Origin: Methanomassiliicoccales archaeon LGM-RCC1
GTDB lineage: Archaea > Thermoplasmatota > Thermoplasmata > Methanomassiliicoccales > Methanomethylophilaceae
Assembly: GCA_030168575.1 (NCBI GenBank)
Contig: CP115555.1
Location: forward strand, 1-64,000
DNA: 64,000 bases
Reading direction: 5' to 3'
The position numbers were made by a program, and so were the translations under genes. The notes beneath the pieces were generated by a model. The model was given only the letters and a program-made list of their open reading frames with translations. It had not been told where the DNA came from and did no database searches. Positions 11,483-52,449 of the stretch are shown here, one piece after another (the first letter of the stretch is position 1; each line of letters starts with the position of its first letter).

Positions 11483-12099
11483 TCATCGAACGAGTGCATC
11501 CACTCCGTAGGCAGCTTTCTGCCTTGAGATGAAGTAATCATCCGGTTCGGCGAACGGGCCGTCGACCACTATATCCGCGTTCTGCGGCATGAACTCTAGA
11601 GTTGACACTGCGAATGGTACCATGGACGCAAAGTCCGACAGGTTGAGGTCGGCTTCCTTGAGCTTGTCCTTGCATCTCAGGTATGCAGTGATGGCTACGT
11701 CGTAGTCGTGGGCGAAGCATACGACGGGATTGTCCTGGATGTATCTGACGTAATTGCCGATGGGATCGTTGAATCCCTCGTATGTCCTGAGGATCTAGCC
11801 GCATTCGGAGCAGACCCTCATCTTGTATTGCCTGTGATAGCCTAGGAGTCTCATCCTGTTCCTTGCGATTCTTCCCCACTGTCTGATGCGTATCTTCCTG
11901 ACCAGACGGTCCATGGTCCAGTCCTCCCAGTCGATCTTGGAGAGGTCCCCTGCTCTTCGTCCTTTCCCGTAGTATTCGTCGTCGTAATCCTGCTCGGAAT
12001 ACTTCGCTTTGGGGGATTTGATCCCGGGGATGAGATAATCGAGGATGTCCAGATCACAATCCACAGTGTCCGGGTCTACCTCGGTGATGCCGAGGCCAA
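11483..12099 (-). pseudogene. 5'-truncated copy of the HUH Rep-like gene, with in-frame TAG
   Basis: The translation matches the C-terminal half of the intact gene at 20783-22270 almost residue for residue, from GLGITEVDPDTVD onward to a slightly different tail. The N-terminal half with the HUH motif is absent, since the homology stops abruptly near 12099. The codon for Gln in CTECGQILR of the intact copy is TAG here (11795-11797, a C-to-T change), and the frame then continues open to TGA at 11483. Loss of the catalytic half makes it a remnant, whether or not TAG is read. The DNA next to the break encodes a Lys-rich tail on the other strand (about 12092-12136) that I cannot assign. Confidence 0.75.
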
Positions 12100-12225
12100 G
12101 AAGAAGATCGCTAAGTTGAAGAAGAAGATGAAGTGAGGAGAATCCCTTCATCCCTCTTGAAACCGCTTTCACCAGTCTTTACAATTTCTGCATCCGCATC
12201 ATACGTGCAACATCTTTCGATTCAC

Positions 12226-18617: not shown

Positions 18618-19658
18618 ATGAAATTCATAGGAATTGATGTACATAAACGCATCTTCACAGCTTGTGTTTTGGATGAGAATGAGAAGGTCGTCGGAGAGAT
18701 TATCGACGCAGAAACTTCTGAGAAAGGACTCGATGAATTCATCGAGCAGTATCCTCCTGAGGATTGTCGTATCGTTTTTGAGAACCTCGGAAGAGCCCAT
18801 TTCGTGTTCCATTATCTTTGGGATAGGGGGTACGCGGTCGATGTAGCACATACTGGACACGGTTCGATGCAGGAAATTGCCAATTGCAATTTCAAGACCG
18901 ATCGCATTGACGCATACAAGCTGGCGCTTGTTTGCAAGGACATCTGGTCAGGAAGGAAGTTCATCAGGCGTGCGCATCTGTCGAAAGACGATGTGATGAG
19001 GATGAAGGGTCTCGTTAGGATCCATAACGAATGTGCGAACATCAGGGACGAGATGTATCTCCGCATTCTTGAATATATGAGCCTTCACAACATCCCGGAA
19101 CATCCGAGATACAAGGATGTCAAAGGACAGGGGTACAGCCAGTATCTTCTGGATATGAAGGATCCTGCGCTTTCAGCGATGGTGAATATGATGTGTTCTG
19201 CTATCTAGCAAGTGAATGTGGCCAATGAGGAAATCAAGAGATATGCAAGGAAATCCGAGGATGCCAGACTGCTGATGACCATCAAGGGTGTTTCGGCTTT
19301 GACAGCAGTCACGGTCGTGACTGCCATCGACGGCATCTACAGATTCGAGACCCCGGAGAAATTGGTATCCTTCTTCGGTCTGGCCGTTCCTCACAAGGAG
19401 TCCGCTCACAAGAAGCAGAAGGTGGGCGTGATCACCAAGGAAGGCGATCCGCTGGTCAGGAAGTATCTGGCCAATGTCGTAATACAGCAGAACATGTGGT
19501 GCAAGGACAGCGATCTTTCGCAATTCTTTAGGAAGAAAGCAGAATCCATGCCACATTGGAAAGCCGTAACGGCGGCGATGAGGAAGCTCACCTCCATCAT
19601 CTGGGCGATGCTGACTAAGAAGCAACCTTACAAGTTCCACCCCATGATGCAATCTTGA
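18618..19658 (+). CDS. IS110/IS1111-family transposase with in-frame TAG at codon 197
   Basis: 346 residues if TAG (19206-19208) is read through. The N-terminal RuvC-like DEDD domain has the Asp in FIGIDVHKR, a Glu in FENLGRAH and KTDRIDAYKLA. The C-terminal transposase-20 domain has GVSALTAVTVVTAIDG, LVSFFGLAVPHKESAHKK (with the candidate catalytic Ser) and GDPLVRKYLANVV. TAG falls in the linker between the two domains and the frame continues unchanged. Without read-through neither half would be active. In the family this enzyme recombines DNA guided by a bridge (seek) RNA made from the element's noncoding part. Confidence 0.8.
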
Positions 19659-27900: not shown

Positions 27901-28767
27901 CTTCTAGACGATGCGGTGAAGATGGTGGCGGCACTGGACGAATCCGATGAGGAGAACGCCCTTGCGGCCAACCTGAGGAAGGATATCGTGGAGGATGTCC
28001 TGAACGGCATGTCCCCCGATGAGGCTCGCGCCAGGAACTCCGTGAGGATATTCGGAGAAGCACTGGGGACCTACGGGACCGGTGTAGGCAGACTGATCGA
28101 GACCGGCAAATGGGATGAGACGAAGGACCTAGCCGACATGTATGCCGCACTGTGCAGCTACGGCTACTCCAAAGGCGAATACGGCAAACCCATGAAGAAC
28201 GAGTTCATGAGACGTTTCGGAAAGGTCGAGGCTACGATCAAGAACGCTCCGACCAGGGAGATCGACATCCTGGACATCGACGACGTCTACCAGTACCTCG
28301 GAGGGATGAACTCCTTCGTAAGGACCTACGGAAGACAGGATGCCCTGACATATATGGGAGACAATTCCGACCCGAAGAAGACCAGGATCCGCAGCACCCA
28401 GGAGGAGCTGCGTTTCCTCTTTAGATCAAAGGTCACCAATCCCAAGTTCAACAATGGCCTGATGGAACACGGATACCGCGGTGCATCCGAGATGGCCAAG
28501 ATCACCGAGTATACCATGGCCTGGGGGGCGACCTCGGGCATTACCGAGGACTGGATGTACGAATCCCTTGTGGACACTTACCTGAGGGACAGGAACGTCC
28601 ACGACTGGATGGACGATGTGAATCCGTATGCGGTGATGAACATCCTGAACACCCTTATGGAAGCCATCAACAGAGGTCTTTGGGATGCCACTCAGGAATA
28701 CCGGGATCTCCTCGAGGAGATGTACATCGATGCCGAGGAGAGGATCGAGGAACTCACCGACAAATGA
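24985..28767 (+). CDS. cobN: CobN/BchH-type chelatase large subunit, copy 1
   Basis: 1260 residues, full length for CobN. In characterised systems CobN or BchH binds the tetrapyrrole and inserts Co or Mg with an AAA+ I/D motor. Family blocks are present: HDPMLFTQHQYNAYYWW, then HMGTHGTLEWLPG near residue 552, NDPGEGVQAKRRAESVL, PGPSGAPTRGSADILPMG and WATDMMKTGGDDAAYI. It differs from copies 2 and 3 in having GA in place of GC in the PSG-PTRG motif and an extra N-terminal stretch. It stands alone as a transcription unit with its own operator-like site. Methanogens insert Co by CbiX/CbiK and Ni by CfbA, so the substrate of this paralogue is open. Confidence 0.85.
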   Translation: MPSDEPVDSYKSKTFRIAYLSIHSTAPKMLEESCLKLKKELGIEVSFKGYTKEDCEDDPLIYEDLCRNTLHCDLVHIRCMGDPWKFSRFDRYSEVLRKSKAFIAPVTGNIEVDMLTEDLYTGTMEELKDLETYIVYKCPENDFRFLWWAARHLGFTDREPPGPEPHPDHEIYHHRYPGKIDTMEYLSELDRSKITVGMVFADSQKVYDNTKYIDMLTDMLEERGMQTIPVSSSFACTRRPGGTESIFRTYFMDENGPIVDVIISLTAYSNINRADGVIPNIDEESCLRRLLDVPVIFGMAYHNSFLDFEMEKTGMRKSDFGANVIYPELDGNILGPPVSFTSKEKPKINQPIPERMDHLCRLTEAWGKLRRKPVTERKVAIMMWQSRPNSGMIGSAASLDTVESVSDILKRMRDLGYRVDSCPSQGRELIDEILDNITNDLDNQSLETVRKKAVDLVSREDYIRDYDQIPKWDRMMTERSWGEPVGELMTDRGKIIIPGLMKGNVFVCYQPMRGWAENMEQNIHDPMLFTQHQYNAYYWWIKNVFKADMIFHMGTHGTLEWLPGLNVGLSEKCNPDYVLDAVPNVYPYIVNDPGEGVQAKRRAESVLIGHMPPTMARADSHGELMEIEVQLQDYFKYRGSASDVMKTELVRQIYEAVKTNNLLKDLGLDGDDDPGPEGFADHIIDLHQYLEDVQETLVRADLHIIGREPKGDHFDEMVYSLSRLDNGDIRSLRDAFSENQGVDLQAAIDDPSGEQTDGELNAVTVSRIDGEEREFIQKLRTEFNYDTEKAKSYLLDRYGKVSEDLSESVRYVCERIVPNIRRMSYELDHMMDAVDGRFVIPGPSGAPTRGSADILPMGRNFYSLDPEKVPTKTSWEIGKRMADQMIERFVSDKGTYPREVGIVIWATDMMKTGGDDAAYILWLLGVKPVWSKMGGQVVDLEVIPVKELGRPRVDVTLNITGLFRDTFPATIDLLDDAVKMVAALDESDEENALAANLRKDIVEDVLNGMSPDEARARNSVRIFGEALGTYGTGVGRLIETGKWDETKDLADMYAALCSYGYSKGEYGKPMKNEFMRRFGKVEATIKNAPTREIDILDIDDVYQYLGGMNSFVRTYGRQDALTYMGDNSDPKKTRIRSTQEELRFLFRSKVTNPKFNNGLMEHGYRGASEMAKITEYTMAWGATSGITEDWMYESLVDTYLRDRNVHDWMDDVNPYAVMNILNTLMEAINRGLWDATQEYRDLLEEMYIDAEERIEELTDK

Positions 28768-36507: not shown

Positions 36508-37394
36508 ACCCTGAACTCCACCTCCTGCGTCGCTTTGGTGTTGTCCCTTCCAGTAAGCTCCAGGAAGACGTCCTCCAAGCCGGTCATCCTTGATGTAACC
36601 GTACAGCTCTCATCGAGAGAATCCCTAAACGCATTCGCCTCTTCACGGTCGTGGAAATAGCGATATTCTTTCTGGCCGCCTTCGGCCTTGTACTCGACCG
36701 TCCATCTGCCCAGGTCATTGCAGAGTTTCTCTGAGGAGCCCTCGGCTATGATCCTTCCGTGATCGAGGATTGCGATCCTGTCGCACAGTTCCTCGGCCTC
36801 GTCCATGTAATGAGTGGTGATGAAGATCGTCGTGCCCTTGGCATTCAGCTCCCTTATGAGTCCCCACAGCATATGCCTGGACTGCGTGTCCAAGCCGGCG
36901 GTGGGCTCGTCAAGGACCAGTATCGACGGATTGTGGATGAGAGCGCTGACAATAGCGACTCTCCTCTGCCAACCTCCTGAGAGGTTGATCGCCATATGGT
37001 CCATGTACGGGCCCAGACCCATTATCTCGACCAATCTGTCGATCCTCTCCTTGGCCTCCTTCTTCGGGATATGATGGAGTATCGCATGGTACACGATGTT
37101 CTCCCTGACGGAGACATCCTTGTCCAGAGCGATGTGCTGCTGTATGATCCCGACCTTCTCCTTCACCGGGTCGTCGAGACCTTTGACCTCATGGCCCTCG
37201 ATGATTATCTTGCCGGAGGTGGGAGGCGTGAGGGTGGTCATGACCCTGATGGTGGTGGTCTTACCGGCACCGTTGGGACCGAGGAAACCGAAGATCTCCC
37301 CCCTCTTCACGTTGACGTCTATGTTGTCCACTGCGGTGAAATCCCCGAACTTCTTGGTGATGCCCTTACCGCTGATTATGAAATCATCTGTCAT
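36504..37394 (-). CDS. ABC-2 type ATP-binding protein (system A)
   Basis: 296 residues from ATG 37394, which lies inside the last codons of cobN-2 and is preceded by GGAGGAGATCA. The open frame upstream to 37466 is out-of-frame cobN sequence. Walker A is GPNGAGKTTT, the signature LSGGWQRRVAIVSAL, Walker B LVLDEPTAGLD and the H-loop TTHYMDEAE. The 11-nt overlap with cobN-2 means translational coupling of a chelatase and an exporter. Confidence 0.92.
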   Translation of the reverse strand: MTDDFIISGKGITKKFGDFTAVDNIDVNVKRGEIFGFLGPNGAGKTTTIRVMTTLTPPTSGKIIIEGHEVKGLDDPVKEKVGIIQQHIALDKDVSVRENIVYHAILHHIPKKEAKERIDRLVEIMGLGPYMDHMAINLSGGWQRRVAIVSALIHNPSILVLDEPTAGLDTQSRHMLWGLIRELNAKGTTIFITTHYMDEAEELCDRIAILDHGRIIAEGSSEKLCNDLGRWTVEYKAEGGQKEYRYFHDREEANAFRDSLDESCTVTSRMTGLEDVFLELTGRDNTKATQEVEFRV

Positions 37395-40300
37395 TGATCT
37401 CCTCCAGCTCCCCTTCCAGGTCCTCGTACAGTTGCAGGAGCCTCTCCCTAGTCTCGTCGTCCGCATCCCACATCTTGCGGTAGATGGCCTCCAGCAACCT
37501 GCTGGTGACCTCCATCATCGCATATGGGTTGGCGTCCCTGAACCACTCGGCGTTCTCCTTGTTGAACAGGAAATTGTCGGCTATGGATTTGTATTCCCAC
37601 CCTTCGATGATATCGGAGGTGGCGTCCCATCCGAAGACGTACTCGGTCATCTTGGATATCTCCTGGGCACCCTTGAATCCATGGGGCTTCAATCCCTCGA
37701 ACCACTTCGGGTTGTTGATCTTGCTGCGGAAGATATAGCGGCCTTCTTCGTCGATCGTCTTGGTCTTAATGTTGCTTGTGTCGGCGGAGAAGCCTATAAC
37801 CGACATGGGAAGCTCCCCCTTGACGGATTTCACTGCTGCGTTGAATCCTCCCAGGTCTGTGTAGACATCGTCGTTGTCGAACATGTCGTATTCCCTGCTG
37901 ACGCTGTTCTTAACCGTGACGTCCATGCTCATGAGCCTGTGCCTGAATGCATCGGACTTCCTCTCCCCGTACCTGCCGATGCCGTATGCATACTCGCCGT
38001 AGTCGCGATAGATCTTTCCGAGCTCGGAAGGGTCCTTCCAGTCGGATGTCCTGATCAGTATGTTGGTTCCGGAACCGTAGCTGCCCGGGGCATCGCCGAA
38101 GATGCGTATCATCGCATCCTCCCTGGCCTGGTCTTCGGGCATGCCTTCCTCAATCGATGTGACTATGTCCTTCCTGAGGTTCGCGAGAAGGTAGTTCTCC
38201 TCCTCCGTCTCGTCCAGCTCCATGGCCATGCGCACGGCCCTGTCTATCATCCTCACGAGGTTGGGGAACGTGTCCCTGAACAATCCGCTTATCCTGAGGG
38301 TCACATCGATCCTCGGCCTTCCCAGCTCCGAGACCGGGATGACCTCCAAGTCCTTCACGCGACCGGCGTAACCGGTCCATACGGGGCGGATCCCCATCAG
38401 CCAAAGGACGTATGCGGTGTCGTCGCCGCCGGTCTTCATGGTATCCGTGGCCCACATCACGATTCCGATGTTCTTCGGATAGCTTCCGTGCTCATCGACG
38501 AACCTCTCCAGCATCTGGTCGGCCATCTTCTTCCCTATCTCCCAGCTCGAATGCCAGGGGACCGCGTCCGGATCTATCGAATAGAAGTTCCTTCCCGTGG
38601 GCAGGATCTGGGCCCTGCCCCTGGTCGGGCATCCCGACGGGCCGGGCTCGATGAACCTTCCCTGGAGGGCCTCCATGACGCTGTCCACCTCCTTGCCCAT
38701 CTTCAGGAGGTTGGGGTGGAGCTCGTCGCAGATGAATGTTATGACCTTCATCATGTCCTCCGGACTTCCGTATCCATCCGCCAAGGACAGGCAGCGCTGC
38801 TTGTCGAATCCGTACTCCATCATCTCGGATATCATGGATTCCATCGTGGTCTCCACATCCTCCAGCACCTGTCCCTTCATCAAACCGGTCCTCGCGTCGA
38901 TCTCTGAAGCGTGATTCTGGATGTCAAGGATATCGTATCCTTTCGCTGAGGCGATCGCCTTCCTGAGCGAAGGTATCTCACCGTTGTCCACACGGACGAG
39001 GCTGTACACGTCCTCCTCCATCCTCTTGCCCTGTGAGACGTCGCCGAGTATGTGCAATCCATCCTTGATCAGGTTCTCCTTGATGTCTACGACGTAATCG
39101 TAGAGGTCGTCGAACTTATCGTCGAGTTCCTCGTCAGAGCATGTATGCTCCAGCTTTAGGTCGTTGTACATGTCCATCCTCGCCAGGACCTCCCTGAGCT
39201 TCGACCTTATCAACGGCAGGTTCTGGTCCTGCTGCTGCGTCTTTGCGGCCATGAAGTTCTGGAGGATGCCTTCCAGTTCGAGGATGTCATCGTAGCCTCC
39301 GGCACGGGTCATGGTGGGGATCATGTGGTCGATTATGACCGCCGCGGCCCTCCTCTTGGCCTGAACCCCCTCTCCGGGGTTGCCTATCACATAAGGGTAG
39401 ATGTCCGGCAGCGAGGTTTGGATGTAATCGGGACAGCAGTCCCCGCTGAGCGCCACCGATTTGCCCGGAAGCCACTCCAGGGTGCCGTGGGTGCCCACGT
39501 GGATCACCGCGTTGGCCCCGAAGTCGTTCCTCAGCCATTTGTAGTAAGCGTAATACTGATGGGGGTGCAGGACATTGGGATCGTGGTAGTTCGCCTGTAT
39601 GTCCCTGCCCCTGTCGGGCTGGAATCCGACGAGGATGTTCCCGAATATCGTTCCGGGGACGATGATGTCTTTACCGACCGTATAGAATTCACCGGTAGGC
39701 TTTCCCCAGTCCTTCTCGATATGCTCCTGCACCGTTTCTGATAACTCCTGGTACCATCCGTCGTACTTATCCGGGGTTATCAGGTCCAGAGAGCGCTTCT
39801 CCACCTCCTCCTTGGAGATCCATTCCGTATCATTGGTCAGACCGTTGAGCATGATCTCGACCAACTCTCTGGAATCCTCCGGGATGTGGTTCCCTACATC
39901 GTATCCATCCTCCTTCATCCTCCTTAGGATGCTCACGACGCTGCCGAATGTATCCAGACCTGCGGCCCCTCCGGCATCCGCGTTCTTCGGCGGATACTGA
40001 TAGAGAAGGATCGCGACCTTCCTATCCTTGTTCTGGATGTGGCGCAGCTTCGCCCACATGATCGCCATGTCGGCCAATCTATAGACCCTGTCCTTAATCC
40101 CCTTGTAATAGTAGACTCCCTTGGAGGATGATTCTGTGCTGGCGCTGGGAACACCGATGATCTGTCCGTCGAATTCCGGATGGACGACATCATAGGCGAC
40201 CTCCGCTGGATTCAATCCCTCCAAGTGGGAGCGCCAGTGCTCCTCCGTGGCTGTGAGGGTCATGGCCTGGATGATCGGGATCCCGTATCTCAGATAGAAG

Positions 40301-41115
40301 TTGTCCTCGCAGACCTGGTCTCCCACACCAGGGGTGGCGATGAGCGTCTGACTGAAGCTCATCGTGTTGATCGCAGCATCTAGAACTGGCTTCCCATCGA
40401 TGGTGAGTTCCTCCTCCAGAAGCCTCTTGATTCCCTTGGAACCGTCCACCTTGTTGTCGTAGGTGTTGAAGAACATGGCGACGGGGTTCCCTCCCAGTTC
40501 CTCCACCGCTCTGATCAGGCAGTCGATGTTGTCGATGTTAGAGTTGATCCACTGCTTCTGATAGAAGAATATCCCGATGTTGGGCTTCGACGGATCGAGG
40601 TTCCTCACGTACTCCGAGAACGACGTGTCCTCCAGCCCGGGGTAGTATATCCCCTCTGTGATCGGACGGATGGGGTCTGGCACCTCGATATCCAGATTAT
40701 CGAATCTCCTGAGCGCCCACATCATCAGTGAGGCGTAGTTCTTGTCCCCTCCCAGTACCGCATACCTCATCACGAGATCGTACTCATCGTCGGTACCGAT
40801 GAAGTGCTTCCTGAAGGCCTCGGTGACACAGTCGTCCGTACAGCTCAGGTGCATGCACACATGATGGAGCTCGATGGCACCCTGGAGCTTGTCGAACTTC
40901 TTGCAGTAGGATGTGTCCCCGTGGACCTTGATGGTGACGAAATCGGCCCCGGAGATGAATTCAACCGCTTCGGCCAGGCACAGCGGGTCCTCGTCGAGAT
41001 CCGCACTGTCGTAGTTGCGGTACTCGATGTCGTATCCCGCGGCGCAGACCTCCTGCACCGCCTTGTTCGTTAGGAAACTGTCATTGGTCCCTATCGATAT
41101 ATTGACATACCGCAC
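37384..41115 (-). CDS. cobN: CobN/BchH-type chelatase large subunit, copy 2
   Basis: 1243 residues from GTG 41115. This start is chosen because GGGAGGTG lies 7 nt before it and the product then begins VRYVNISIGTNDSF, like copy 3. The upstream ATG at 41181 would add an unrelated leader and overlap the operator-like site. Family blocks: HVGTHGTLEWLPGKSVALS near residue 537, GNPGEGVQAKRRAAAVI, PSGCPTRGRAQILPTG, WATDTMKTGGDDTAYVLW. It sits 96 nt after chlD and overlaps the downstream ABC ATPase by 11 nt. It is the copy most likely to work with the ChlI/ChlD motor because of its position. Confidence 0.88.
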   Translation of the reverse strand: MRYVNISIGTNDSFLTNKAVQEVCAAGYDIEYRNYDSADLDEDPLCLAEAVEFISGADFVTIKVHGDTSYCKKFDKLQGAIELHHVCMHLSCTDDCVTEAFRKHFIGTDDEYDLVMRYAVLGGDKNYASLMMWALRRFDNLDIEVPDPIRPITEGIYYPGLEDTSFSEYVRNLDPSKPNIGIFFYQKQWINSNIDNIDCLIRAVEELGGNPVAMFFNTYDNKVDGSKGIKRLLEEELTIDGKPVLDAAINTMSFSQTLIATPGVGDQVCEDNFYLRYGIPIIQAMTLTATEEHWRSHLEGLNPAEVAYDVVHPEFDGQIIGVPSASTESSSKGVYYYKGIKDRVYRLADMAIMWAKLRHIQNKDRKVAILLYQYPPKNADAGGAAGLDTFGSVVSILRRMKEDGYDVGNHIPEDSRELVEIMLNGLTNDTEWISKEEVEKRSLDLITPDKYDGWYQELSETVQEHIEKDWGKPTGEFYTVGKDIIVPGTIFGNILVGFQPDRGRDIQANYHDPNVLHPHQYYAYYKWLRNDFGANAVIHVGTHGTLEWLPGKSVALSGDCCPDYIQTSLPDIYPYVIGNPGEGVQAKRRAAAVIIDHMIPTMTRAGGYDDILELEGILQNFMAAKTQQQDQNLPLIRSKLREVLARMDMYNDLKLEHTCSDEELDDKFDDLYDYVVDIKENLIKDGLHILGDVSQGKRMEEDVYSLVRVDNGEIPSLRKAIASAKGYDILDIQNHASEIDARTGLMKGQVLEDVETTMESMISEMMEYGFDKQRCLSLADGYGSPEDMMKVITFICDELHPNLLKMGKEVDSVMEALQGRFIEPGPSGCPTRGRAQILPTGRNFYSIDPDAVPWHSSWEIGKKMADQMLERFVDEHGSYPKNIGIVMWATDTMKTGGDDTAYVLWLMGIRPVWTGYAGRVKDLEVIPVSELGRPRIDVTLRISGLFRDTFPNLVRMIDRAVRMAMELDETEEENYLLANLRKDIVTSIEEGMPEDQAREDAMIRIFGDAPGSYGSGTNILIRTSDWKDPSELGKIYRDYGEYAYGIGRYGERKSDAFRHRLMSMDVTVKNSVSREYDMFDNDDVYTDLGGFNAAVKSVKGELPMSVIGFSADTSNIKTKTIDEEGRYIFRSKINNPKWFEGLKPHGFKGAQEISKMTEYVFGWDATSDIIEGWEYKSIADNFLFNKENAEWFRDANPYAMMEVTSRLLEAIYRKMWDADDETRERLLQLYEDLEGELEEINDR

Positions 41116-41142
41116 CTGTCCGCACCTCCCTGCCCGGTCATA

Positions 41143-41159
41143 TTGGATTCTACATCCAT
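41143..41159. promoter_or_regulatory. TTGGAT-N5-ATCCA operator-like site before cobN-2
   Basis: TTGGATTCTACATCCAT is a 17-nt palindrome with one mismatch, 28 nt upstream of the cobN-2 start in the chlD-cobN gap. It suggests an internal regulated promoter. Confidence 0.55.
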
Positions 41160-41211
41160 CTCGTCTGAGAGGATGATTCACTTCATAGGTATTTGTTGGT
41201 TGGTTCTTCCG

Positions 41212-43104
41212 TCAGCGGATGACCGCTCTCACGCTCTCCGCAAGCCTGTCCGCGTTGAGGTCCTCGAGCCTGAAGTAAGTTCCCTCTAGTGCCTGAGCGA
41301 GCTTCTCGGCGTTGTCGAACCGTATGAATCCCGCACTCGCATCGATGACGATCCACTTGACCTGCGGGATCGCCATGTCCTCGGCGAGCTTCAGGACCTC
41401 GTCGTTGGCATTGGCGCCCTCGCTCAACGCGACATTCGCGCGTCCGTCCGTGATGATTACGATGTAGCACATCTCTCCGACATGGGAGCGGGAATAGGAT
41501 GTCATGTAATCGTTGACGGTGATGAGGGCCTGGGCCAGCGGGGTCTTCCCGCCGGTCGGCATCTCCTCCAGTTTCCTATAGCTGTACTCCACCGACCTTG
41601 TCGGAGGAAGGACCAACTCGGCAGAATCGCGCCTGAAGGCCATCATTCCGATCCTGTCCCTCTTCACATAGCTGTCCCTGAGCATGGATAGGACTGCGCC
41701 CTTCACGGCGGTCATCCTCTTCCTGACCCCCAGGGAACCGCTGGCATCCACCAGGAACAGTATGGTGCATCCTGCACGCATCTCGCGGACCTTCTCCCTG
41801 ATGTCCTGTTTCTGGATGCTGATGGTCAGCCCCTCGTGTTCCCTCCCCTTCTGGAAAGGGGCCGCTGCTCTGACAGTGGCGTCGAATGCTATGTCGTGAG
41901 TCTTATCGGCCGGGATCCTGGACCTGGCGTAGCGTCCGGAGGAATCCGAACTCTCGACCATCATTCTGCGGCCCTTCTTGGCGGATGTCTTCGAGACCTT
42001 CCTCGGACCGTCGTTGAGGTAATCGACCACTCTGAACTGCTCCCCTATCTCGAAGACCATGTCATCCAGCAACTGCTGGAAATCCATATCCGGCGGCTCC
42101 GGAGGGGGGTCCTGCTGCCGATCGTCCTGTTCCTCCTCCGGGGGCTCGGGCTCCTGCTGGTCGTTCTGATCCTGATCCTCGGGCGGTTCCTCATCCTGAT
42201 CGTCCTGTTCCTCCTCCGGAGGTTCGGGCGGCTGCGGCGGAGGCTCCTGCACATAGTTGCGCCTGTGTGCCAAACAGAGCATTGCCGCCTCTTCGACGTC
42301 CTTCTTCATGACCTCGTCGCGGCCGTTGAGCGCCGCGAGCGCCTTGGCCGTGTTGACCATGCATATGTCGCCGCGGTAACCATCGGCCAGCACCTTCATC
42401 GCAAGTTCGACTGATACTCCCATCAGATCATCGGACATCGAGACCAGGGGCAGGATCTTCTGCGCCCTCACGATGTTGGAGATGAGCTGATCCTCTTCTT
42501 CTTTGTAAAGTGAGACGAATGATGCGGGATCCTTCTGGAAGTCCATGTTACGCCTGAGGATCTCCGCCTTCCTGTCATCCTCCTGGGGGAATGCGGCATA
42601 TGCACAGAGATCGAAGCGGTCCAGGACATGCGAGCTCACATCGGAATCGTTGGGATTCATGGTTGCTATCAGCATGGTGTCCACGGTGTATTCCGCGGAG
42701 ACGCCTTCCCTCTCCAGAACAACCCTGCCTTCGATGACAGAATTCAGGAGGGACATCAGTATCCTCTGGTCCATGAGGTTCACGTCATCGACGTAGACGA
42801 TGTTCCCGTCGGCCCTGGACAGGAGCCCGGGCTGCATGACGGCCTTGCCCTCCTTGATGGTGGCGTCGATGTCCATCCCTCCGAAGAGCTGCTCCTCGGA
42901 TACGTTCACGGGAACGTTGATTATGTTCTTACCGCAGATACGTCCCACGGACCTTGCGAGTACGGTCTTGGCGGAACCCTGCCCGCCCCTTATCATGACC
43001 GTCCTTATGTTGGGATTGACCAGCATGCACTGCATGGCCCTCTTGGCGTCCTCCATGCCGAGGACTGCTGAGAATGGGAAGGACCTCAGATCGACTGGAG
43101 GCAT
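41212..43104 (-). CDS. chlD: Mg-chelatase-type subunit D (AAA+ plus VWA)
   Basis: 630 residues. An N-terminal AAA+ domain (Walker A RGGQGSAKTVLARS) is followed by an acidic Pro/Glu/Gln-rich linker near residues 285-345 and a C-terminal VWA domain with the MIDAS motif FLVDASGSLG. This is the ChlD/BchD/CobT-like architecture that links the I-subunit motor to the large subunit. The linker is unusually regular, with repeated PEEEQDD blocks. The start overlaps the chlI 3' end by 19 nt, so the two are coupled. Gene-symbol use is by family; the metal is unknown. Confidence 0.9.
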   Translation of the reverse strand: MPPVDLRSFPFSAVLGMEDAKRAMQCMLVNPNIRTVMIRGGQGSAKTVLARSVGRICGKNIINVPVNVSEEQLFGGMDIDATIKEGKAVMQPGLLSRADGNIVYVDDVNLMDQRILMSLLNSVIEGRVVLEREGVSAEYTVDTMLIATMNPNDSDVSSHVLDRFDLCAYAAFPQEDDRKAEILRRNMDFQKDPASFVSLYKEEEDQLISNIVRAQKILPLVSMSDDLMGVSVELAMKVLADGYRGDICMVNTAKALAALNGRDEVMKKDVEEAAMLCLAHRRNYVQEPPPQPPEPPEEEQDDQDEEPPEDQDQNDQQEPEPPEEEQDDRQQDPPPEPPDMDFQQLLDDMVFEIGEQFRVVDYLNDGPRKVSKTSAKKGRRMMVESSDSSGRYARSRIPADKTHDIAFDATVRAAAPFQKGREHEGLTISIQKQDIREKVREMRAGCTILFLVDASGSLGVRKRMTAVKGAVLSMLRDSYVKRDRIGMMAFRRDSAELVLPPTRSVEYSYRKLEEMPTGGKTPLAQALITVNDYMTSYSRSHVGEMCYIVIITDGRANVALSEGANANDEVLKLAEDMAIPQVKWIVIDASAGFIRFDNAEKLAQALEGTYFRLEDLNADRLAESVRAVIR

Positions 43105-44111
43105 CTCTCGAGCTCCTCCGTATCGAATGCGGCCTCCTCGAAGGGTCTGCGCCTCATGCGGTGCGAAAGGACGAGTGCCGCCACGGCCCTGATGTCATCC
43201 TTGTTGACATCGGTCCTGCCGTCCAGGGCCGCATTGGCCTTGGCGGCCTTCATCATGGTGATGTCGGCCCTGTGGCCGTCGATCCCGAACGAGGTGGTGA
43301 TGGATACGATCGCCCTGATGATGGAATCGTCGGTCACGACCTTGGGAAGGAGCTCCCTCGCCTTGGTGATCTTCTCACGCATGGCATCGGTCTCCGCCTT
43401 GCACTCCGCAGTGTACTTCGCGGGGTCGGCATCGAAAGCGACCCTGCGCTTCACGACCTCCATGCGCATCTCCATGTCCTTGTCACCCTTGACGTCCACG
43501 GATAATCCGAATCTGTCCAGGAGCTGGGGCCTGAGCTCTCCCTCTTCGGGATTCATGGTCCCCACGAGGATGAAACGCGACGGATGGGAGAAGGACACGC
43601 CCTCCCTCTCGATGTAATTGACTCCCATGGCTGCGGAGTCCAGGAGGAGATCTACGATGTGATCGTCCAAAAGATTGACCTCGTCCACGTACAGCAGGTT
43701 CCCGTTGGCCTGCGCCAGGACTCCGGGCTCGAACTTCTTCTCGCCGGTCTTCAGTACGTGCTCGATGTCCAGGGTTCCCGCGACACGGTCTTCGGTCGCA
43801 CTCAAGGGAAGCTCCACGACCCTCATCTGGACCTGTTCAGGGACAAGTTTCTCTCCTTTTGCCAGCTTCTCTGCGCAATAGGGACATAGCCTGTCAGGCC
43901 TGGAGGGATCGCAGTTGAAGACACAACCTTCAACAGTGTCCCTGTAGGGAAGTATCTGCGCCAACGAACGGACGGTGGTCGACTTGGCGGTACCCTTCTC
44001 TCCTTTGATGAGCGCACCGCCGATTCCGGGGTCCACCATGTTGAGGAGGAGAGCCCTCTTCATGTCCTCTTGGCCTACGATCGATACGAACGGGAATAGG
44101 AGTTTCTCCAT
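43086..44111 (-). CDS. chlI: Mg-chelatase-type AAA+ ATPase subunit I
   Basis: 341 residues from ATG 44111, preceded by AGGTGTAATC. Walker A is GEKGTAKSTTVRS, Walker B LLYVDEVNLLDD, and the ChlI insert has LDRFGLSVDV. A Cys cluster (CVFNCDPS followed by CPYC) is present, as in many archaeal and bacterial I subunits. It is the motor that drives metal insertion by the large subunit. It is the first gene of a unit running chlI, chlD, cobN-2, two ABC-2 systems and the isochorismatase-like gene. An operator-like site overlaps its TATA box. Confidence 0.92.
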   Translation of the reverse strand: MEKLLFPFVSIVGQEDMKRALLLNMVDPGIGGALIKGEKGTAKSTTVRSLAQILPYRDTVEGCVFNCDPSRPDRLCPYCAEKLAKGEKLVPEQVQMRVVELPLSATEDRVAGTLDIEHVLKTGEKKFEPGVLAQANGNLLYVDEVNLLDDHIVDLLLDSAAMGVNYIEREGVSFSHPSRFILVGTMNPEEGELRPQLLDRFGLSVDVKGDKDMEMRMEVVKRRVAFDADPAKYTAECKAETDAMREKITKARELLPKVVTDDSIIRAIVSITTSFGIDGHRADITMMKAAKANAALDGRTDVNKDDIRAVAALVLSHRMRRRPFEEAAFDTEELERCLQSI

Positions 44112-44154
44112 GATTACACCTGGTGATTGACTGTAACAACGACCTCGGATATAA

Positions 44155-44171
44155 TTGGTATTATAAACCAA
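44155..44171. promoter_or_regulatory. TTGG-N9-CCAA operator overlapping chlI TATA box
   Basis: TTGGTATTATAAACCAA has perfect 5-bp arms. Read on the minus strand it contains TTTATAATA, which can be the TATA box of chlI, whose ATG is 44 nt downstream. Confidence 0.6.
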
Positions 44172-44214
44172 CTGTTTGGCTGCATACTGCTGGAAAAGTG
44201 TTATGTCGATGACA

Positions 44215-45039
44215 TCAGCAACAATGAGAGAATCCATCACATGAGGAATCGGGGTTCTCCGGCAAGGTGTCGTCAAAACCGTCGCTCATGATGAGATGAG
44301 GACTGCCGTTGTCGTCGATGATCTTGCACTTGACCCCGTATACGGTGAGAATGTTCTCCTCGGTAATTACATCCTTGGGCTTACCGACCGCGAAGATGGA
44401 CCCCTCGTGCATCAGGATGATGCTGTCCGAATACTTGGCCGCGATGTTAATGTCGTGACTTATCATTATCACGAGAATCTTCTCTTGGCGGGACAGATCC
44501 CTAAGCATCCTTGATATCCCCAACTGGTGTTTGATGTCCAGATTCGAAGTTGGTTCGTCCAATAGAAGAATTTGCGGCCTCTGGACTAATCCCCTTGCCA
44601 AAATAACGCGCTGATGCTGGCCTGCGGAGAGTTCATTGAAGGGCCTCATGGCCAGATCGTCGATGCCCAACATCTTCAAAGTATCATATACGATGTCTAG
44701 ATCTTCGTCGGTGGTCTTCCACCCCGCGTGAGGGTGCCTACCCAAAAGAACAGTGTCCACCACGGTTAAGGGAAATGTATCCGGCGAGGTGTAGGGCACG
44801 TACCCGATTTTCTTTGCCATTTCCTTGTAATTGTAATCCTTAACGTCTTTCGAATCAAGAAGTATGGTCCCTCCGCTTGGAGACAGGATCTTGTTGATGC
44901 AATGGATGAGTGTGGATTTGCCGACACCATTCGGACCCAGAATGCTGACCAGCTGTGGGCCGGTGATGTTCAAGCTGATGTCCTTCAGAACATCCAGGTC
45001 CGTGTAGCCGAAAAACATCTTGTTCGCATCTATTTCCAT
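44215..45039 (-). CDS. FecE/BtuD-type ABC ATPase (importer A)
   Basis: 274 residues from ATG 45039. Walker A is GPNGVGKSTL, the signature LSAGQHQRVILARGL, Walker B ILLLDEPTSNLD and the H-loop MISHDINIA. It powers import of Fe-siderophore, haem or cobalamin-like cargo in the family. It is divergent from the binding protein and permeases of the same system, with the operator-like site at 45092 between them. It is close to the ATPase at 56191, down to the C-terminal DD-G-PHLIM pattern, so the two systems are duplicates. Confidence 0.92.
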   Translation of the reverse strand: MEIDANKMFFGYTDLDVLKDISLNITGPQLVSILGPNGVGKSTLIHCINKILSPSGGTILLDSKDVKDYNYKEMAKKIGYVPYTSPDTFPLTVVDTVLLGRHPHAGWKTTDEDLDIVYDTLKMLGIDDLAMRPFNELSAGQHQRVILARGLVQRPQILLLDEPTSNLDIKHQLGISRMLRDLSRQEKILVIMISHDINIAAKYSDSIILMHEGSIFAVGKPKDVITEENILTVYGVKCKIIDDNGSPHLIMSDGFDDTLPENPDSSCDGFSHCC

Positions 45040-45091
45040 AGGCAATCAACCTTTTGACATCCCCAATACCATTATCGAAATATATGAACAA

Positions 45092-45153: not shown

Positions 45154-46491
45154 ATGGACAAAAAAGTCTCAACGGTAGTCGCTGTCGTGGTTATTGTCGC
45201 CGTGATAGTAGCCGCGGCCGTAGTTGTCATGTATGGCAACAACAACCATGGAGGAGCCTACAAGATCGATGGCGCCCTGATGGTTTACGGTAACGCTGAC
45301 GGTGATTACAAGATTGACAACAATGACGTAAAACTCATTGAAGACATTATTGACGGAAAGAAAGATTTTGCCGACTACCCTTATGCCGACGCGACATACG
45401 ACGGCAAGGTTAACTCAGATGATGTCGCTTTGACAAACAAGATCATCAAAGGCGAAAGCTGTTCGGTTAACGTAGTGAGCACACATTCCATCCAGGATTA
45501 CGTCGTCAGCGTTAAATGGCCCGTGAAATCGGCCATCGCTACCGGATCCGCGAACATGCTCCTGATGTACAGCTATGCTCACATCGAGGATAACATCCAC
45601 GGAATATGCTACACGACCTCATCCCCTCCGAACAAAGCCCTGTTCCCCTCCTTCGTCAACTGCACTCAGATTGGTACCTCCACTACCAAGATTAACATGG
45701 ATCTCGCATCCCAGGTGCAGAAGGACTATGGTGTTACTTGTATGCTTCTGGACCGCACTGCCTCCACCTTAAAGAACGAGGAACCTCTGCTGGTCGAGAT
45801 GGGAATCGATGTCGTGAGGCTCAACGCTGCCTGTGTAGACGCAAAGAGCTTCCAGTCACAGCTCCTCATGATCGGATTCCTCTTCCAGACGGATACCGCA
45901 TGCCGTGAAATCGCTGACTGGACGCAGAAGACCATGGACGAGATTCAGAAAAAGACTAGCAAGCTCAAGGACGACGAGAAGTATTCGGTCCTGACTGCAA
46001 ACGCTGGATACCCCAGAGCATGGATCTCTGGTGGAAACTCCGACTACAAGGATGTAATGATTCAGGCCGGCGCCAACTATGCACTGTCGGATGAAAAACT
46101 GGCAGAGATCAGTACGTACGCATCCGGTGCCTACTTCAACGAGGGAGACACATGGATTTACGACCTGGATGTGGACAAGTTCGTCGCAATCCGTACTGGC
46201 GGATGGTACTCCGGAGACATCAACATCGTCGATATGTGGGAGAACCAGTTCGCACTCCTCAAACAGATGGACTGCTACAAGGAAGGTAACGTCTACATCA
46301 TCCCCGGTGATGCACCCATCATCCTGCGTGTCGTTTACACCGCAGCCTTGCTGTATCCTGACCTGTTCACCATGGAGTGGGCAGACAAGCTCAACAAGGA
46401 GTTTATGGAGAAGTTCTATCCAGTCGACATCAACCTGGAAGGAAAGATTTTCTACATAACAAAAGAAATGGTGGAGAACACTATAGCTTGA
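45154..46491 (+). CDS. dockerin-like module plus TroA-type substrate-binding protein (importer A)
   Basis: 445 residues. An N-terminal membrane anchor (VAVVVIVAVIVAAAVVVMYG) is followed by two dockerin-like Ca-binding repeats at about 40-110 (GNADGDYKIDNNDV and ADATYDGKVNSDDV) and then a class III periplasmic-binding fold of FepB/BtuF type. The binding fold has motifs like ATGSANMLLM and RTGGWYSGDINIVDMW. The ribosome site AGGTGA is 6 nt before the ATG. It delivers cargo to the two permeases that follow. The dockerin part is unusual for such a protein. Confidence 0.85.
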   Translation: MDKKVSTVVAVVVIVAVIVAAAVVVMYGNNNHGGAYKIDGALMVYGNADGDYKIDNNDVKLIEDIIDGKKDFADYPYADATYDGKVNSDDVALTNKIIKGESCSVNVVSTHSIQDYVVSVKWPVKSAIATGSANMLLMYSYAHIEDNIHGICYTTSSPPNKALFPSFVNCTQIGTSTTKINMDLASQVQKDYGVTCMLLDRTASTLKNEEPLLVEMGIDVVRLNAACVDAKSFQSQLLMIGFLFQTDTACREIADWTQKTMDEIQKKTSKLKDDEKYSVLTANAGYPRAWISGGNSDYKDVMIQAGANYALSDEKLAEISTYASGAYFNEGDTWIYDLDVDKFVAIRTGGWYSGDINIVDMWENQFALLKQMDCYKEGNVYIIPGDAPIILRVVYTAALLYPDLFTMEWADKLNKEFMEKFYPVDINLEGKIFYITKEMVENTIA

Positions 46492-46536: not shown

Positions 46537-47634
46537 ATGAACGAGAATGCAGACACTGAACATACATCATTCAGAGACGAGTACGGGACCTACATAGTCA
46601 GGAAAATCGTCCTTATCGTCTTGTGCATCATCCTGTCGATATTCTTACTTGGTTTTTCAATCTACATAGGCGGCTCGGATATCGATTTCGCCAGAGTCTA
46701 TTCACTTTTGATAGACCATCTCATGGGTCACGAATATGAAACAGGTACAATCGATTTCATCGATGATTATGTCGTTTGGAATCTGAGGTTGCCCCGCGCT
46801 CTGATTGGAATAATTGCAGGAGCAGGATTGGCCGCGGGCGGTGCGGTCATGCAGTCAGTCATGAAGAATCCTCTGGCAGACCCATACACCACAGGAATAT
46901 CCTCTGGGGCCTGTTTCGGAATGGCCATTGCCATAATAGTGGGACTGGAGATAGGCTCCGGAACAATTCTGGGCGATACTGGAGGTGTCCTAAACGCATT
47001 CATCTTCGCAGTCGTACCGATGCTTCTGATCATCGTTTTGAACCAAAGGATTGGTGCGTCCCCTACGACACTGATCCTAGCTGGAGTGGCCATATCTTAC
47101 ATCTTCAACTCTCTGACTACGATCCTGATGATGATGACCGATTCAGAGACCCTGGCCAACGTTTATCGCTGGCAGATAGGATCCCTCAGTAACAACCTGA
47201 CTTGGAATGATTTCCCAATCTTGGCATCGGTGAACATTGTAGGATCGATAGCGTTGATTATGCTCTCATCCAAGCTCAACGTGCTAACCCTAGGAGATGC
47301 TAGTGCGAAAAGCCTTGGTATGGACGCGGACATGATGCGCGTGGTCTGCCTTTTCATCATCTCTCTAATGGTGGCATCAATTGTCAGTTACTGCGGAATA
47401 ATAGGATTTGTCGGACTTGTGGTCCCGCACATCATTCGCATACTAATCGATTCTGACAACAAATTCGTTATCCCGGCATCCATGGCCCTGGGGGCTGTTT
47501 TTCTCATATCCGCAGATATAGCGGCAAGACTGATATCTCCGTTGGATGCCATACCTGTAGGCGTCATCCTTTCATTCGTCGGTTCGCCGATATTCCTCTA
47601 CCTGATCATAAGGCAGAAGAAGGAGGTGTGGTGA
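46537..47634 (+). CDS. FecCD/BtuC-type permease 1 (importer A)
   Basis: 365 residues with about ten membrane helices. Family motifs: LRLPRALIGIIAGAGLAAGG, MKNPLADPYTTGISSG, CGIIGFVGLVVPHIIR and GVILSFVGSPIFLYL. It overlaps the next permease by 7 nt, so the importer is a heterodimer. It is most like the permease at 53587. Confidence 0.92.
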   Translation: MNENADTEHTSFRDEYGTYIVRKIVLIVLCIILSIFLLGFSIYIGGSDIDFARVYSLLIDHLMGHEYETGTIDFIDDYVVWNLRLPRALIGIIAGAGLAAGGAVMQSVMKNPLADPYTTGISSGACFGMAIAIIVGLEIGSGTILGDTGGVLNAFIFAVVPMLLIIVLNQRIGASPTTLILAGVAISYIFNSLTTILMMMTDSETLANVYRWQIGSLSNNLTWNDFPILASVNIVGSIALIMLSSKLNVLTLGDASAKSLGMDADMMRVVCLFIISLMVASIVSYCGIIGFVGLVVPHIIRILIDSDNKFVIPASMALGAVFLISADIAARLISPLDAIPVGVILSFVGSPIFLYLIIRQKKEVW

Positions 47635-48701
47635 TGAATCCTCTGACATCTATCTACAGGGCCCTTACGAAGAAACATCTGTTATTGATAGTCGCCGTAA
47701 TCCTCATTACCATAGTCATCACGACCTATTCAATATGCGTCACCCAATATAGCATATCCTTCGAGGAAGCTTTAACGGTGATCCACAACCGCCTTAATAA
47801 CATCCTGCCGAGCACCAACAAGGAAGAGCTCCTCGATTTCATCGTATGGGATAATCTGATTCCCCGCGGTCTCGCAGGAGTCCTGATAGGCGCAATACTA
47901 GGGGTCTGCGGTTGCCTGATGCAGTCCACGATAAGGAATCCTCTGGCCGATCCGTATACCACCGGAATATCGTCAGGAGCGCTGCTGGGAGTCACTCTGT
48001 ATGTGATCTTCGGCATATCCCTGATCCCCGAGAGCGTATCCGGCGTCGGCATGATGACTATGGCCTTCATATTCGCACTCATCCCGTGCTCCGCGATACT
48101 GCTGATCTCGGCATTCAAGAAAATCTCCTCGACGACGATCGTTCTCATAGGAATTGCCCTGATGTACTTCTTCACATCCGTATCCACGTTATTCCGTTAT
48201 ACCGGTACGGATGAGAGTATCGCCATCATCTATTCCTGGACTGTCGGTACCTTGGGAAAAGCGGGTTGGGATTCTATCATCCCCCTTTTGTTAACGACGA
48301 TTCTCATCGTCGTGATCTCGATGTATCTGGCGAACAGCATCAACGTCATGTCCACCAGCGATAAGCTCGCGATATCCCTCGGAGTGAATCCGCAGAGAAT
48401 ACGCTTAATCATGATGGTCGTGGTTTCTATTTCAGCTGCAATAGCGGTATGCTATTCAGGTACCATAGGCTTCGTCGGTCTGGTCGCCCCTCACGTGTCA
48501 AGGATATTCGTGGGTTCCAATGCCAAGATACTCATCCCGACATCCGCCTGCATAGGCGCATTCATGCTGATCGCTGCGGATGTGGTCTCACGTATAATCA
48601 TCCCGACCGGTCTCCCTGTAGGAATCATCACTTCTCTGGTAGGAGGTCCGCTGTTCCTGCTCATACTCATCAGACAGAAGAGGAACGCCTGGGGACAATG
48701 A
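47628..48701 (+). CDS. FecCD/BtuC-type permease 2 (importer A)
   Basis: 357 residues with about ten helices and the same motifs (IRNPLADPYTTGISSGA; SGTIGFVGLVAPHVSRI; GIITSLVGGPLFLLIL). It pairs with the permease before it. cobN-3 starts 16 nt after its stop, so importer and chelatase subunit are one operon. It is most like the permease at 52471. Confidence 0.92.
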   Translation: MVMNPLTSIYRALTKKHLLLIVAVILITIVITTYSICVTQYSISFEEALTVIHNRLNNILPSTNKEELLDFIVWDNLIPRGLAGVLIGAILGVCGCLMQSTIRNPLADPYTTGISSGALLGVTLYVIFGISLIPESVSGVGMMTMAFIFALIPCSAILLISAFKKISSTTIVLIGIALMYFFTSVSTLFRYTGTDESIAIIYSWTVGTLGKAGWDSIIPLLLTTILIVVISMYLANSINVMSTSDKLAISLGVNPQRIRLIMMVVVSISAAIAVCYSGTIGFVGLVAPHVSRIFVGSNAKILIPTSACIGAFMLIAADVVSRIIIPTGLPVGIITSLVGGPLFLLILIRQKRNAWGQ

Positions 48702-48717: not shown

Positions 48718-51700
48718 ATGAAATTAACAATCGTATCCGTCAGAATCCGTGACGGTTCATATCTTGCAAATTCCATCAGGCAACTGCAGAACGAGGGATA
48801 TGACATATCTGTGGAAGATTACGACTACGGAGATATAGACAACAATCCCGATACTCTGTCCTCCTTCCTGGATTCCTTAGATTCTACTGATTTCCTCTAC
48901 ATATGGGTATCCGGGAATCTGGAATATTTCAAGAATTACAGCATCGCCCTGAAGAAAGCCTCCAGGATGTCGATACCGACATTCATCTTCAACGCCAGCC
49001 GCGAAAGGGCCGATGAGCATAGGGGCACGTTCCCCTATCCGGATCCGGACTACGAGATCCTTTACAACTATGCCCTTCTGGGAGGCTCGTCCAATTTCAG
49101 GGGCATCGGCTTCTGGATACTGAACAATATCGCGGGAGAGAAAAACGAGCTACCCGAACCCCAGATTCCTCCCGGACAGGGCGTGTACAAACCAGGTTGC
49201 ACAGACGTGTCTTTCGAGACTCACATACCGTAGATCGACCACAGCAAAACAGTTGTCGGAATATTCATGAGCCAGAGGCGCTGGAACGGGATGGATCTCG
49301 CCACTATTGACTCATTGATGGATTCCATCGAGAAACAGGGCGGTTATCCGCTCACGGTTTTCTTCACATACGCAGAAAAGGAAGAATCGCAATCGATTGG
49401 CATCAGGAACATCATAGACAAGTATCTGATGGAAGACGGAAAACCCCTGATCGATGTAGCTATCAATACGATATCGTCCTCCGTTGTGACTGAAGCCAAA
49501 TTCAACTCACCGCTTCCCGAAGATCCATTCTTGGAAAGACTGGATGTCCCCATTCTGCAATCACCAATGCTGGTCAAATCGGAATCTGAATGGAGGGGGA
49601 GCATATTCGGCCTTACCACCGCAGAAATTGCGTACGATGTGGCCTTCCCCGAATTCGACGGTCAGATAATCACAGTACCGCACTGTTCTACCGTTCATGA
49701 AACGGACGGGATCAAGCATGTCCCCATAGAACAGCGCACCAAGGACGTCGTCGAGATGGCCATCAGATGGGGCAGGCTCAGACACATCCCCAACGACAGG
49801 AAAAAGGTCGCCATCCTCTTCTACATGTACCCTCCCCAGATATCGAACGGAGGGAGCGCTGCCGGCCTTGACACCTTCGAAAGCATATCCAATCTCCTCA
49901 AGAGGATGTCTGAGGCAGGGTACAAGCTGGATTGGGTTCCAGATGACCGCAAGGACCTTTCTGACAGAGTGATGAGCTAGGTTACCAACGACATCGAATG
50001 GACGAATGAGAATGACCTCCTGTCGAGGGCCTGCGCAATCATCGAGCCTGAATCCTATGAGAGATGGTTCTCCACCCTCTGCGAAAGGGAGAGGGAAGGC
50101 ATGATCAGGGATTGGGGCGAACCGCCGGGAGAGATCCTCACCAGCAAAAAGCGCATCGCCGTGCCTGGAGTCATCAACGGCAATGTCATGCTAAGTTTCC
50201 AACCTGCTCGCGGAAAGGACGTGCAGGCGACTTATCACAATCACAACTGCTCCATTCCCCATCAGTACCTATCCTTCTACAGGTGGCTGAAGGACGAGTT
50301 CAAGGCGGATGCCATCATCCATGTGGGAACACATGGGACACTGGAGTGGCTGCCTGGAAAATCAGTGGGACTGTCCGAGGATTGCGCCTGCGACTATGTC
50401 CTCTCCCAGCTCCCCAATCTTTACATCTATGTCATCTGCAACCCCGGAGAAGGGATCCAGGCCAAGCGCAGGAGCTATGCGGCATTGGTAGACCATCTCA
50501 TACCTGCGCTCATGAGAGCGGGCTCATACGACGAACTCAGCGAACTGGAGGTGGCGATTCAGTCCTTCATGCGGATGAGGGGCAGCAACCAACAGGTTCA
50601 GATGGAGGCGTACAGGAGCAACGTCTTGGAGCTCATAAAGCAACTGAACCTTGAGAGCGAGGCCGGGATCAGGGATGACTCGACCTCAGAGGAGATCGAT
50701 GAATCGATCGTCCGTCTTTACGACTACGTCGAAGAGGTCAAGGAGAACATCATCAAGGACGGTCTGCACATATTCGGCAAGGTCCCGGAATCAGAGCGCA
50801 TGCTAGAGATGATATACTGTCTGACCAGGCTCCCAAACGATTCAGTGCCTTCGCTTCCCAGATCCATCGCGGAAGCCAAGGGCTATGACCTGATCCAATT
50901 GCAGGATCACGCCTCGGACATCGATCCCTTGACGAACAGGTTCAACGGGGAGGTCGCTGAGGATATCGCCAATCTCACCATGCAATTCATAGAGAGATGC
51001 ACATCGGTAGATTGGGAACATACCGCGTGTTCCGAGATCATCGATTCGGAATTCAGCGGCAACGGAAACCTGCACTCGGTTGCAACCTTCATCTGCGGAG
51101 AACTCTATCCAAACATCAGGAAGACCACATATGAGATCGATAGCCTCCTCCATGGGTTGGACGGGGGATATGTTCCCCCGGGACCGTCGGGCTGCCCCAC
51201 CAGAGGGAGGGCGCAGATACTTCCCACAGGGAAGAACTTCTACGGGCTCGATCCGGATGGTATCCCTTCACAGGCCAGCTGGAAGATCGGATGCACCATG
51301 GCGGACCAGATGATACAGCGCTTCCTGGATGACAACGGCCGCTATCCGGACAGCATAGGCATAGTGCTGTGGGCGACTGACACCCTCAAGACGGGGGGCG
51401 ACGATGTCGGCTATGTGCTATGGCTACTCGGCGTACGCCCAGTGTGGGCAGGAACCGGCGATTGTGTGACCAGACTCGAGATAATACCGTTGGAAGAGCT
51501 GGGGAGACCCAGGGTCGATGTCACTGTAAGGGTCAGCGGACTCTTCAGGGACGCTTTCCCCAACTTGACGGCCATGATCGACAGGGCCGTAGAGATGGTG
51601 GCCGAATTGGATGAAGACGAGGAGAGCAACCACATCAGGGCCAACTACCGCGAGGACCTGTCGAAGATGATTGCCGACGGAATCCCGGAGGACGAGGCAA

Positions 51701-52449
51701 GGTCTAGATCCCTCTCCCGCATATTCAGTTCCGCACCGGGACAGTACGGGGCCGGAGTGAACGTCCTCATCAGGAACTCCTGCTGGGATGAAAGAAAGGA
51801 GATCGGGGACTACTACATAGGTGTGGGCGGCTACCGCTACGGAATAAGGAACAACGGAGTACTGGACGAGGGATTGTTCAGGAACAGGATGGCGAAGATA
51901 GAAGTGACCGTCAAGAACAGCACCAGTCGCGAGTACGACATGTTCGACAACGATGATGTCTTCATGTACCTCGGTGGATTCAATGCCGCGGTGGAATCCG
52001 TCACGGGTAAGAGGCCCATGTCCGTGATCGGTTGCTCTGCCGACACTTCCAGACCTGTATTCCGCACCATCGAGGAGGAATCCAAATTCATATTCCGCAG
52101 CAAGGTCCTGAATCCGAAATACGAACAGGGGCTGCGTGTACACGGCTTCAGAGGCGCGACCGAGATCAAGCACATGTTCGAATACATCTTCGCATGGGAT
52201 GCGACATCGGATATCATCGAGAACTGGATGTACGACCGTCTCGCAAAGGATTACATCGTCAAAGAAGACGTCAGGGAGTGGATCAATGAGGCCAACCCAT
52301 ATGCCATGCGCGATATGATCGACATCCTTATGGAAGCGTACGACAGGAAGATGTGGGATGCTTCCGACGACCTCCTCAAGGAGTTATCGGACATCTATCT
52401 GGAGAATGAAGAGATCATCGAGGAGCTGACTGACAGCAAGGGTAGATGA
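48718..52449 (+). CDS. cobN: CobN/BchH-type chelatase large subunit, copy 3, with two in-frame TAG codons
   Basis: Read through TAG at 49231-49233 and 49978-49980, the frame gives 1243 residues, exactly the length of copy 2. Homology is collinear across both sites: THIP-TAG-IDHSKTVVGIF faces YVRN-LDPSKPNIGIF, and VMS-TAG-VTNDIEW faces MLNGLTNDTEW. Both lie at positions where the paralogues have variable residues (N or E; G or N). No other stop or frameshift occurs, and the catalytic blocks are intact: HVGTHGTLEWLPGKSVGLS near residue 535, CNPGEGIQAKRR, PSGCPTRGRAQILPTG, WATDTLKTGGDD. It is probably decoded with pyrrolysine; a young pseudogene is the alternative. Confidence 0.8.

Follow-up and report, generated by a model that had tools for sequence, protein, structure and literature searches.

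The stretch of DNA analysed (the window) comprises the first 64,000 nucleotides of the genome of Methanomassiliicoccales archaeon LGM-RCC1, which consists of one contig of 1,664,211 bases. On its forward strand, a gene for a CobN-type class I chelatase large subunit runs from an ATG start at 48718 to a terminal TGA at 52449. Translation of this frame gave 1243 residues followed by the TGA, and TAG codons at 49231 and 49978 were its sole interruptions, which confirmed the frame for a full-length CobN-type product noted in a preliminary description of the locus. A single uninterrupted match to PF02514 (CobN-Mg_chel) spans both TAG codons (1179.9 bits, residues 117-1218 of the read-through product), and the match to TIGR02257 reached 868.7 bits against a cut-off of 822.05, while the remaining NCBIfam CobN models scored under their cut-offs. 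Sequence relatives in the PDB were CobN (7c6o and 9uk9), ChlH (4zhj) and HmuS (9d26). By sequence, the predicted product thus belongs to the CobN/class I chelatase large subunit family, and the frame, with about 1,070 homologous codons past the first TAG, cannot have arisen by chance.

Standard-code ORF calling cuts this gene into three ORFs; unless TAG is read through, both the number of genes and the pathways assigned to these archaea will be in error. The ORFs beginning at ATG 49267 and ATG 50101, the second of which is preceded by a purine-rich sequence (GGGAGAGGGAAGGC), could in principle allow the protein to be made in separate pieces from internal starts past the TAG codons, for example as a 782-residue product from ATG 50101. 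That in-frame ATG, however, lies 40 codons past the second TAG, with the loss of conserved residues including T423-N424-D425, and no split CobN of such a layout was noticed among relatives. Translation in pieces is consequently regarded as extremely unlikely.

Chelatase paralogues, importer genes and likely role

A paralogue without internal TAG codons, cobN-2, occupies 37384..41181 on the minus strand and has a GTG start. The preliminary description had given cobN-2 as 37384-41115 and noted the same length of 1243 residues; the ORF extends to 41181, and the equal length holds for the version beginning at an in-frame GTG at 41115. The product of the TAG-containing gene is 46% identical to cobN-2 in an alignment of 1232 columns that contains 8 gap positions. 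The alignment around the TAG codons, previously described as gapless, is nearly so: within 30 residues on either side, a lone gap of one residue was seen, some 17 residues ahead of the second TAG. Together with its neighbours, cobN-2 forms a chlI-chlD-cobN operon conserved in the genus; it is the strongly conserved CobN of the genus, and several relatives have it, along with ChlI/ChlD, at 72-80%. The TAG-containing gene evolves faster. In all, four CobN paralogues were seen in the 1.66-Mb genome, three of them within 28 kb (24985-28767, 37384-41181 and 48718-52449) and the fourth at C1:1654631-1657996. No similar plasmid DNA was found.

Next to cobN-2 and on the same strand lie an AAA+/VWA chelatase partner subunit (ChlD/CobT-like; 41212..43104, -) and a ChlI-like AAA+ partner subunit (43086..44276, -). 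Both partner genes (41212-44276) are on the strand opposite to the TAG-containing gene, and it is inferred that the subunits are used by both chelatases. An ABC-transporter ATPase (44215..45045, -) is divergent from a set of importer genes, which comprises a substrate-binding protein (45154..46491, +; a weak Peripla_BP_2 match, below the Pfam cut-off), a FecCD/BtuC-type permease (46537..47634, +) and a second permease of this type (47628..48701, +), whose end lies 16 bp before the chelatase start. The placement of the chelatase alongside its importer, as claimed previously, therefore proved real, with the substrate-binding protein and two permeases on the same strand, and the order of importer and CobN was found again in the orthologues at 53-54% identity. 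An adjacent BtuC-type importer and ChlI/ChlD partners suggest that the likeliest role of the enzyme, a weaker inference than its family membership, is the insertion of metal into, or its removal from, an imported tetrapyrrole.

Pyrrolysine machinery and TAG usage in the genome

The preliminary description proposed a search of the genome for pyl genes, and a complete set was found: pylT, pylS, pylB, pylC and pylD stand in a row at about 1290439-1294378 of the same contig. The tRNA-Pyl encoded by pylT has the anticodon CTA (that is, a CUA tRNA), PylS is of the C-terminal type (259 bits), and PylB, PylC and PylD each scored above their cut-offs. Directly upstream of the pyl genes is an mtmB gene with an in-frame TAG. 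The PylS N-terminal domain was searched for and found to be absent; this was rejected as an argument against pyrrolysine, as a short PylS lacking that domain has been described for Methanomassiliicoccales (PMC3941956). TAG would then be decoded as pyrrolysine by the CUA-anticodon tRNA-Pyl and this short pyrrolysyl-tRNA synthetase.

The use of TAG was examined in a 479-kb sample consisting of the window, the region of the pyl genes and 20 stretches of 20 kb each at even spacing (400 kb), in which coding ORFs of at least 100 amino acids were counted and an extension was scored when it covered at least 60 codons with coding-like codon usage. Coding ORFs ended at TGA in 298 cases, at TAA in 25 and at TAG in 11 (about 3%). 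Coding sequence continued past the stop in 7 of the 11 TAG-ended ORFs, compared with 37 of the 323 ending at TGA or TAA (Fisher p = 1e-4), and with the two cobN pieces left out, 5 of 9 TAG-ended ORFs still continued (p = 0.002). For the most part, then, this genome uses TAG as a sense codon. The other four TAG-ended ORFs (4/334 of all coding ORFs, about 1%) had no long coding extension, and either genuine termination or short pyrrolysine-containing tails would account for them. As about 1% of coding ORFs seemingly end at TAG, termination and pyrrolysine insertion may compete at this codon.

Besides the chelatase, read-through genes in the sample were mtmB, an aconitase, an IS110 transposase, a TraG/VirD4-like protein and a 229-residue protein. 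The aconitase (L081:6208-9033, -; C1:1206208-1209033) has its in-frame TAG inside the catalytic Aconitase domain, and its nearest orthologue, 92% identical and present in a relative, is uninterrupted; a core enzyme thus seems to need TAG read-through. In the IS110-family transposase (18618-19658, +), a read-through candidate, the TAG at residue 197 falls between its two Pfam domains, and the TraG/VirD4-like coupling protein (L075:5121-7229, +) has one at residue 549. The 229-residue frame (11483-12172, -) contains one TAG (residue 126) with coding-like codon usage on both sides, and no Pfam match to it was found. A chelatase with two predicted pyrrolysine sites and an aconitase with a TAG of its own indicate that this lineage treats TAG almost like any other sense codon.

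Competition at TAG also bears on whether the two codons act as partial stops, yielding fragments of 171 and 420 residues besides the whole protein in a ratio set by pyrrolysine supply. According to a review (PMC9499178), UAG is probably contested by release factor and Pyl-tRNA, no dedicated signal being involved, and some genes in the 479-kb sample still seemingly end at TAG; both points favour such a scheme. The fragments, however, would be incomplete domains, and no regulatory element was detected at the codons: there was no credible Rfam match and no PYLIS-like element at either TAG, and the RNA downstream folded no better than shuffled sequences (z = -0.02 and 1.52). Partial termination of this kind is highly unlikely. 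A PYLIS-like stem-loop has been reported as not required (PMC9499178), and as an optional feature its absence does not disqualify pyrrolysine read-through.

Conservation of the gene and of the two TAG sites

The rumen MAG SIG9 (Thermoplasmata archaeon isolate SIG9) matched 11.9 kb of this region at 99.7% with no gap or indel and retained both TAG codons, making sequencing error very unlikely as their source. Among farther homologues, every orthologue or paralogue with no more than 55% identity carries a sense codon at each of the two sites. A search of 60 genomes, comprising that of the window and its relatives, gave 98 CobN matches spanning at least about 1000 query residues (a hand count). 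Internal stops occurred in five of these, namely the gene described here and homologues in genomes G003, G006, G009 and G011; all seven codons concerned were TAG, and no internal TAA or TGA was found among the 98. The TAA and TGA codons first flagged in the CobN genes of relatives, as well as a TAG in L054, were rejected as internal since they lie at gene ends. In CobN paralogues of four other species (L055, L056, L057 and L058), the internal TAG codons correspond to query residues 468, 726 and 902, 555, and 953, respectively, and these differing positions point to independent gains. PylS scored over its cut-off in G009 and G011 and was present as a contig-edge fragment in G003; it was not found in G006, which is 82% complete.

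Divergence along the gene was compared with that of two sense-codon orthologues (L009 and L014, 54% and 53% identity). The branch of the TAG-containing gene was about 1.25 times longer overall. Its largest excess was in residues 1-420, before the second TAG (0.83 versus 0.64 and 0.55); it was smaller in residues 422-800 (0.65 versus 0.55 and 0.44) and absent past residue 800 (0.32 versus 0.29 and 0.40). The sequence past the second TAG therefore displays no clear extra divergence, and these branch lengths lean towards constraint downstream. Changes were seen in 7 of 191 near-invariant columns, a number that uninterrupted homologues also reach. His539 and Glu578, to which a catalytic role is assigned from PMC12583661, are invariant in the alignment. 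Residues 558 and 570, in contrast, are Cys and Ile in the TAG-gene product and Pro in 44 of 44 homologues; both lie close to the active-site loop (His539) and may reflect a changed substrate. Taken together, the branch lengths, the near-invariant columns and the retained His539 and Glu578 suggest a paralogue that evolves faster but still works.

These data also bear on the possibility of a recent pseudogene, in which two nonsense mutations cut the protein short and what follows them is still recognisable since too little time has passed. The mildly faster evolution of the gene relative to its orthologues and the changes in columns invariant in 44 homologues, such as 558 and 570, would be in keeping with decay, as would the nine base differences from SIG9, of which five are non-synonymous and four synonymous, too few changes from one sister assembly for a dN/dS estimate. 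However, both stops are TAG, with no TAA or TGA, in a genome that mostly reads through TAG, and the TAG-only pattern recurs in CobN paralogues of other species. Furthermore, the acceleration is stronger before the second TAG than after it, and the frame, the importer gene order and the catalytic residues have all been kept. A pseudogene is therefore considered unlikely. The explanation held with high confidence is instead an intact gene encoding a full-length CobN/HmuS-type class I chelatase in which TAG is decoded as pyrrolysine. Insertion at both codons, as the preliminary description had proposed, has good support from four observations, namely the complete pyl operon, the rarity of TAG termination, the retention of both codons in SIG9 and the lack of clear decay downstream; it would entail efficient translation of both TAGs and a functional protein.

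The two sites themselves differ. Both had been described as variable, which holds for residue 172 (TAG at 49231..49233, +) and not for residue 421 (TAG at 49978..49980, +). At the former, Lys (AAG) or Glu (GAA) is found in the nearest orthologues, and the Lys codon of the 54% orthologue, AAG, is one base off TAG. The latter corresponds to Gly in 40 of the 44 homologues and to Asn or Ala in the others, and is followed by the motif T423-N424-D425, invariant in the alignment; pyrrolysine at residue 421 may therefore carry some structural cost. The structure model was modest (mean pLDDT 71.8, pTM 0.59) and its use was limited to secondary structure at these residues, which it places at the C-terminal ends of predicted helices 166-172 and 411-421, with a pLDDT of about 89 for block 171-180 and about 54 for block 421-430. 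Both pyrrolysine sites look tolerated rather than catalytic. Sitting at predicted helix ends and distinct from the conserved His539 and Glu578, they would probably have arisen by near-neutral substitution, for example at residue 172 through the change of a Lys codon, AAG, into TAG. It is very improbable that pyrrolysine is useful in the chelatase, for example through its imine side chain binding a ligand or by tying output to the methylamine-dependent supply of pyrrolysine; if it were, tetrapyrrole metal handling would be coupled to methylamine growth.

Comparison with known pyrrolysine proteins and chelatases

As a class I chelatase sequence, the predicted protein resembles both CobN of Mycobacterium tuberculosis (7c6o) and the heme dechelatase HmuS of Bacteroides thetaiotaomicron (9d26; PMC12583661). 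The GKHG histidine of CobN, numbered His522 in PMC12583661, is the counterpart of His539 in the alignment; the T-H order matches Thr537-His538 of HmuS, and Glu578 falls in the matching motif. Unlike these proteins, it is an archaeal paralogue encoded beside a BtuC-type importer and by a gene with two TAG codons.

The preliminary description had placed the protein outside a known set of pyrrolysine proteins limited to methyltransferases. That set proved to be wider, as many other such proteins had already been predicted (PMC4153887, PMC5011839). In Ca. Methanomethylophilus alvus, 16 non-methyltransferase pyrrolysine proteins were predicted, TAG ends only 1.6% of genes, and TAG mutations were argued to be tolerated (Borrel 2014, PMC4153887). 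For ISO4-H5, the genome report gives 46 amber-containing genes (PMC5011839). Examples listed in these reports are Cas1, MtxX and, in ISO4-H5, insertion sequence elements (PMC4153887, PMC5011839). The present genome shares with these organisms in-frame TAG codons in ordinary genes that have TAG-less homologues, the same pyl system and rare TAG stops. The chelatase differs from their examples in being another protein and in having two TAG codons in one gene; a CobN-type chelatase is absent from Table 7 of the M. alvus report (PMC4153887) and is not named in the searched text of the ISO4-H5 report (PMC5011839). No paper naming CobN or a Mg chelatase with pyrrolysine was found in the literature searched.

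A pyrrolysine-containing tRNA-His guanylyltransferase (Thg1) from Methanosarcina (Heinemann 2009) is cited in PMC8211752 and PMC4153887. It is likewise a case of pyrrolysine outside the methylamine methyltransferases and is explained by neutral evolution; unlike the chelatase, predicted from sequence, it was reported from the Methanosarcinales.

The mechanism is thus one expected and already reported for this order, and the chelatase is a well-supported further case of it that does not figure in the published lists consulted. Kivenson and colleagues (Science, 2025) have reportedly described a 'Pyl code', in which some archaea use every TAG to encode pyrrolysine. General use of TAG as a sense codon would be common to that code and to the genome described here; as a difference, 4 of the 11 TAG-ended coding ORFs in the present sample are without a long coding extension. 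With the chelatase, a large metabolic enzyme with two predicted pyrrolysine sites joins the TAG-containing genes of gut methanogens.
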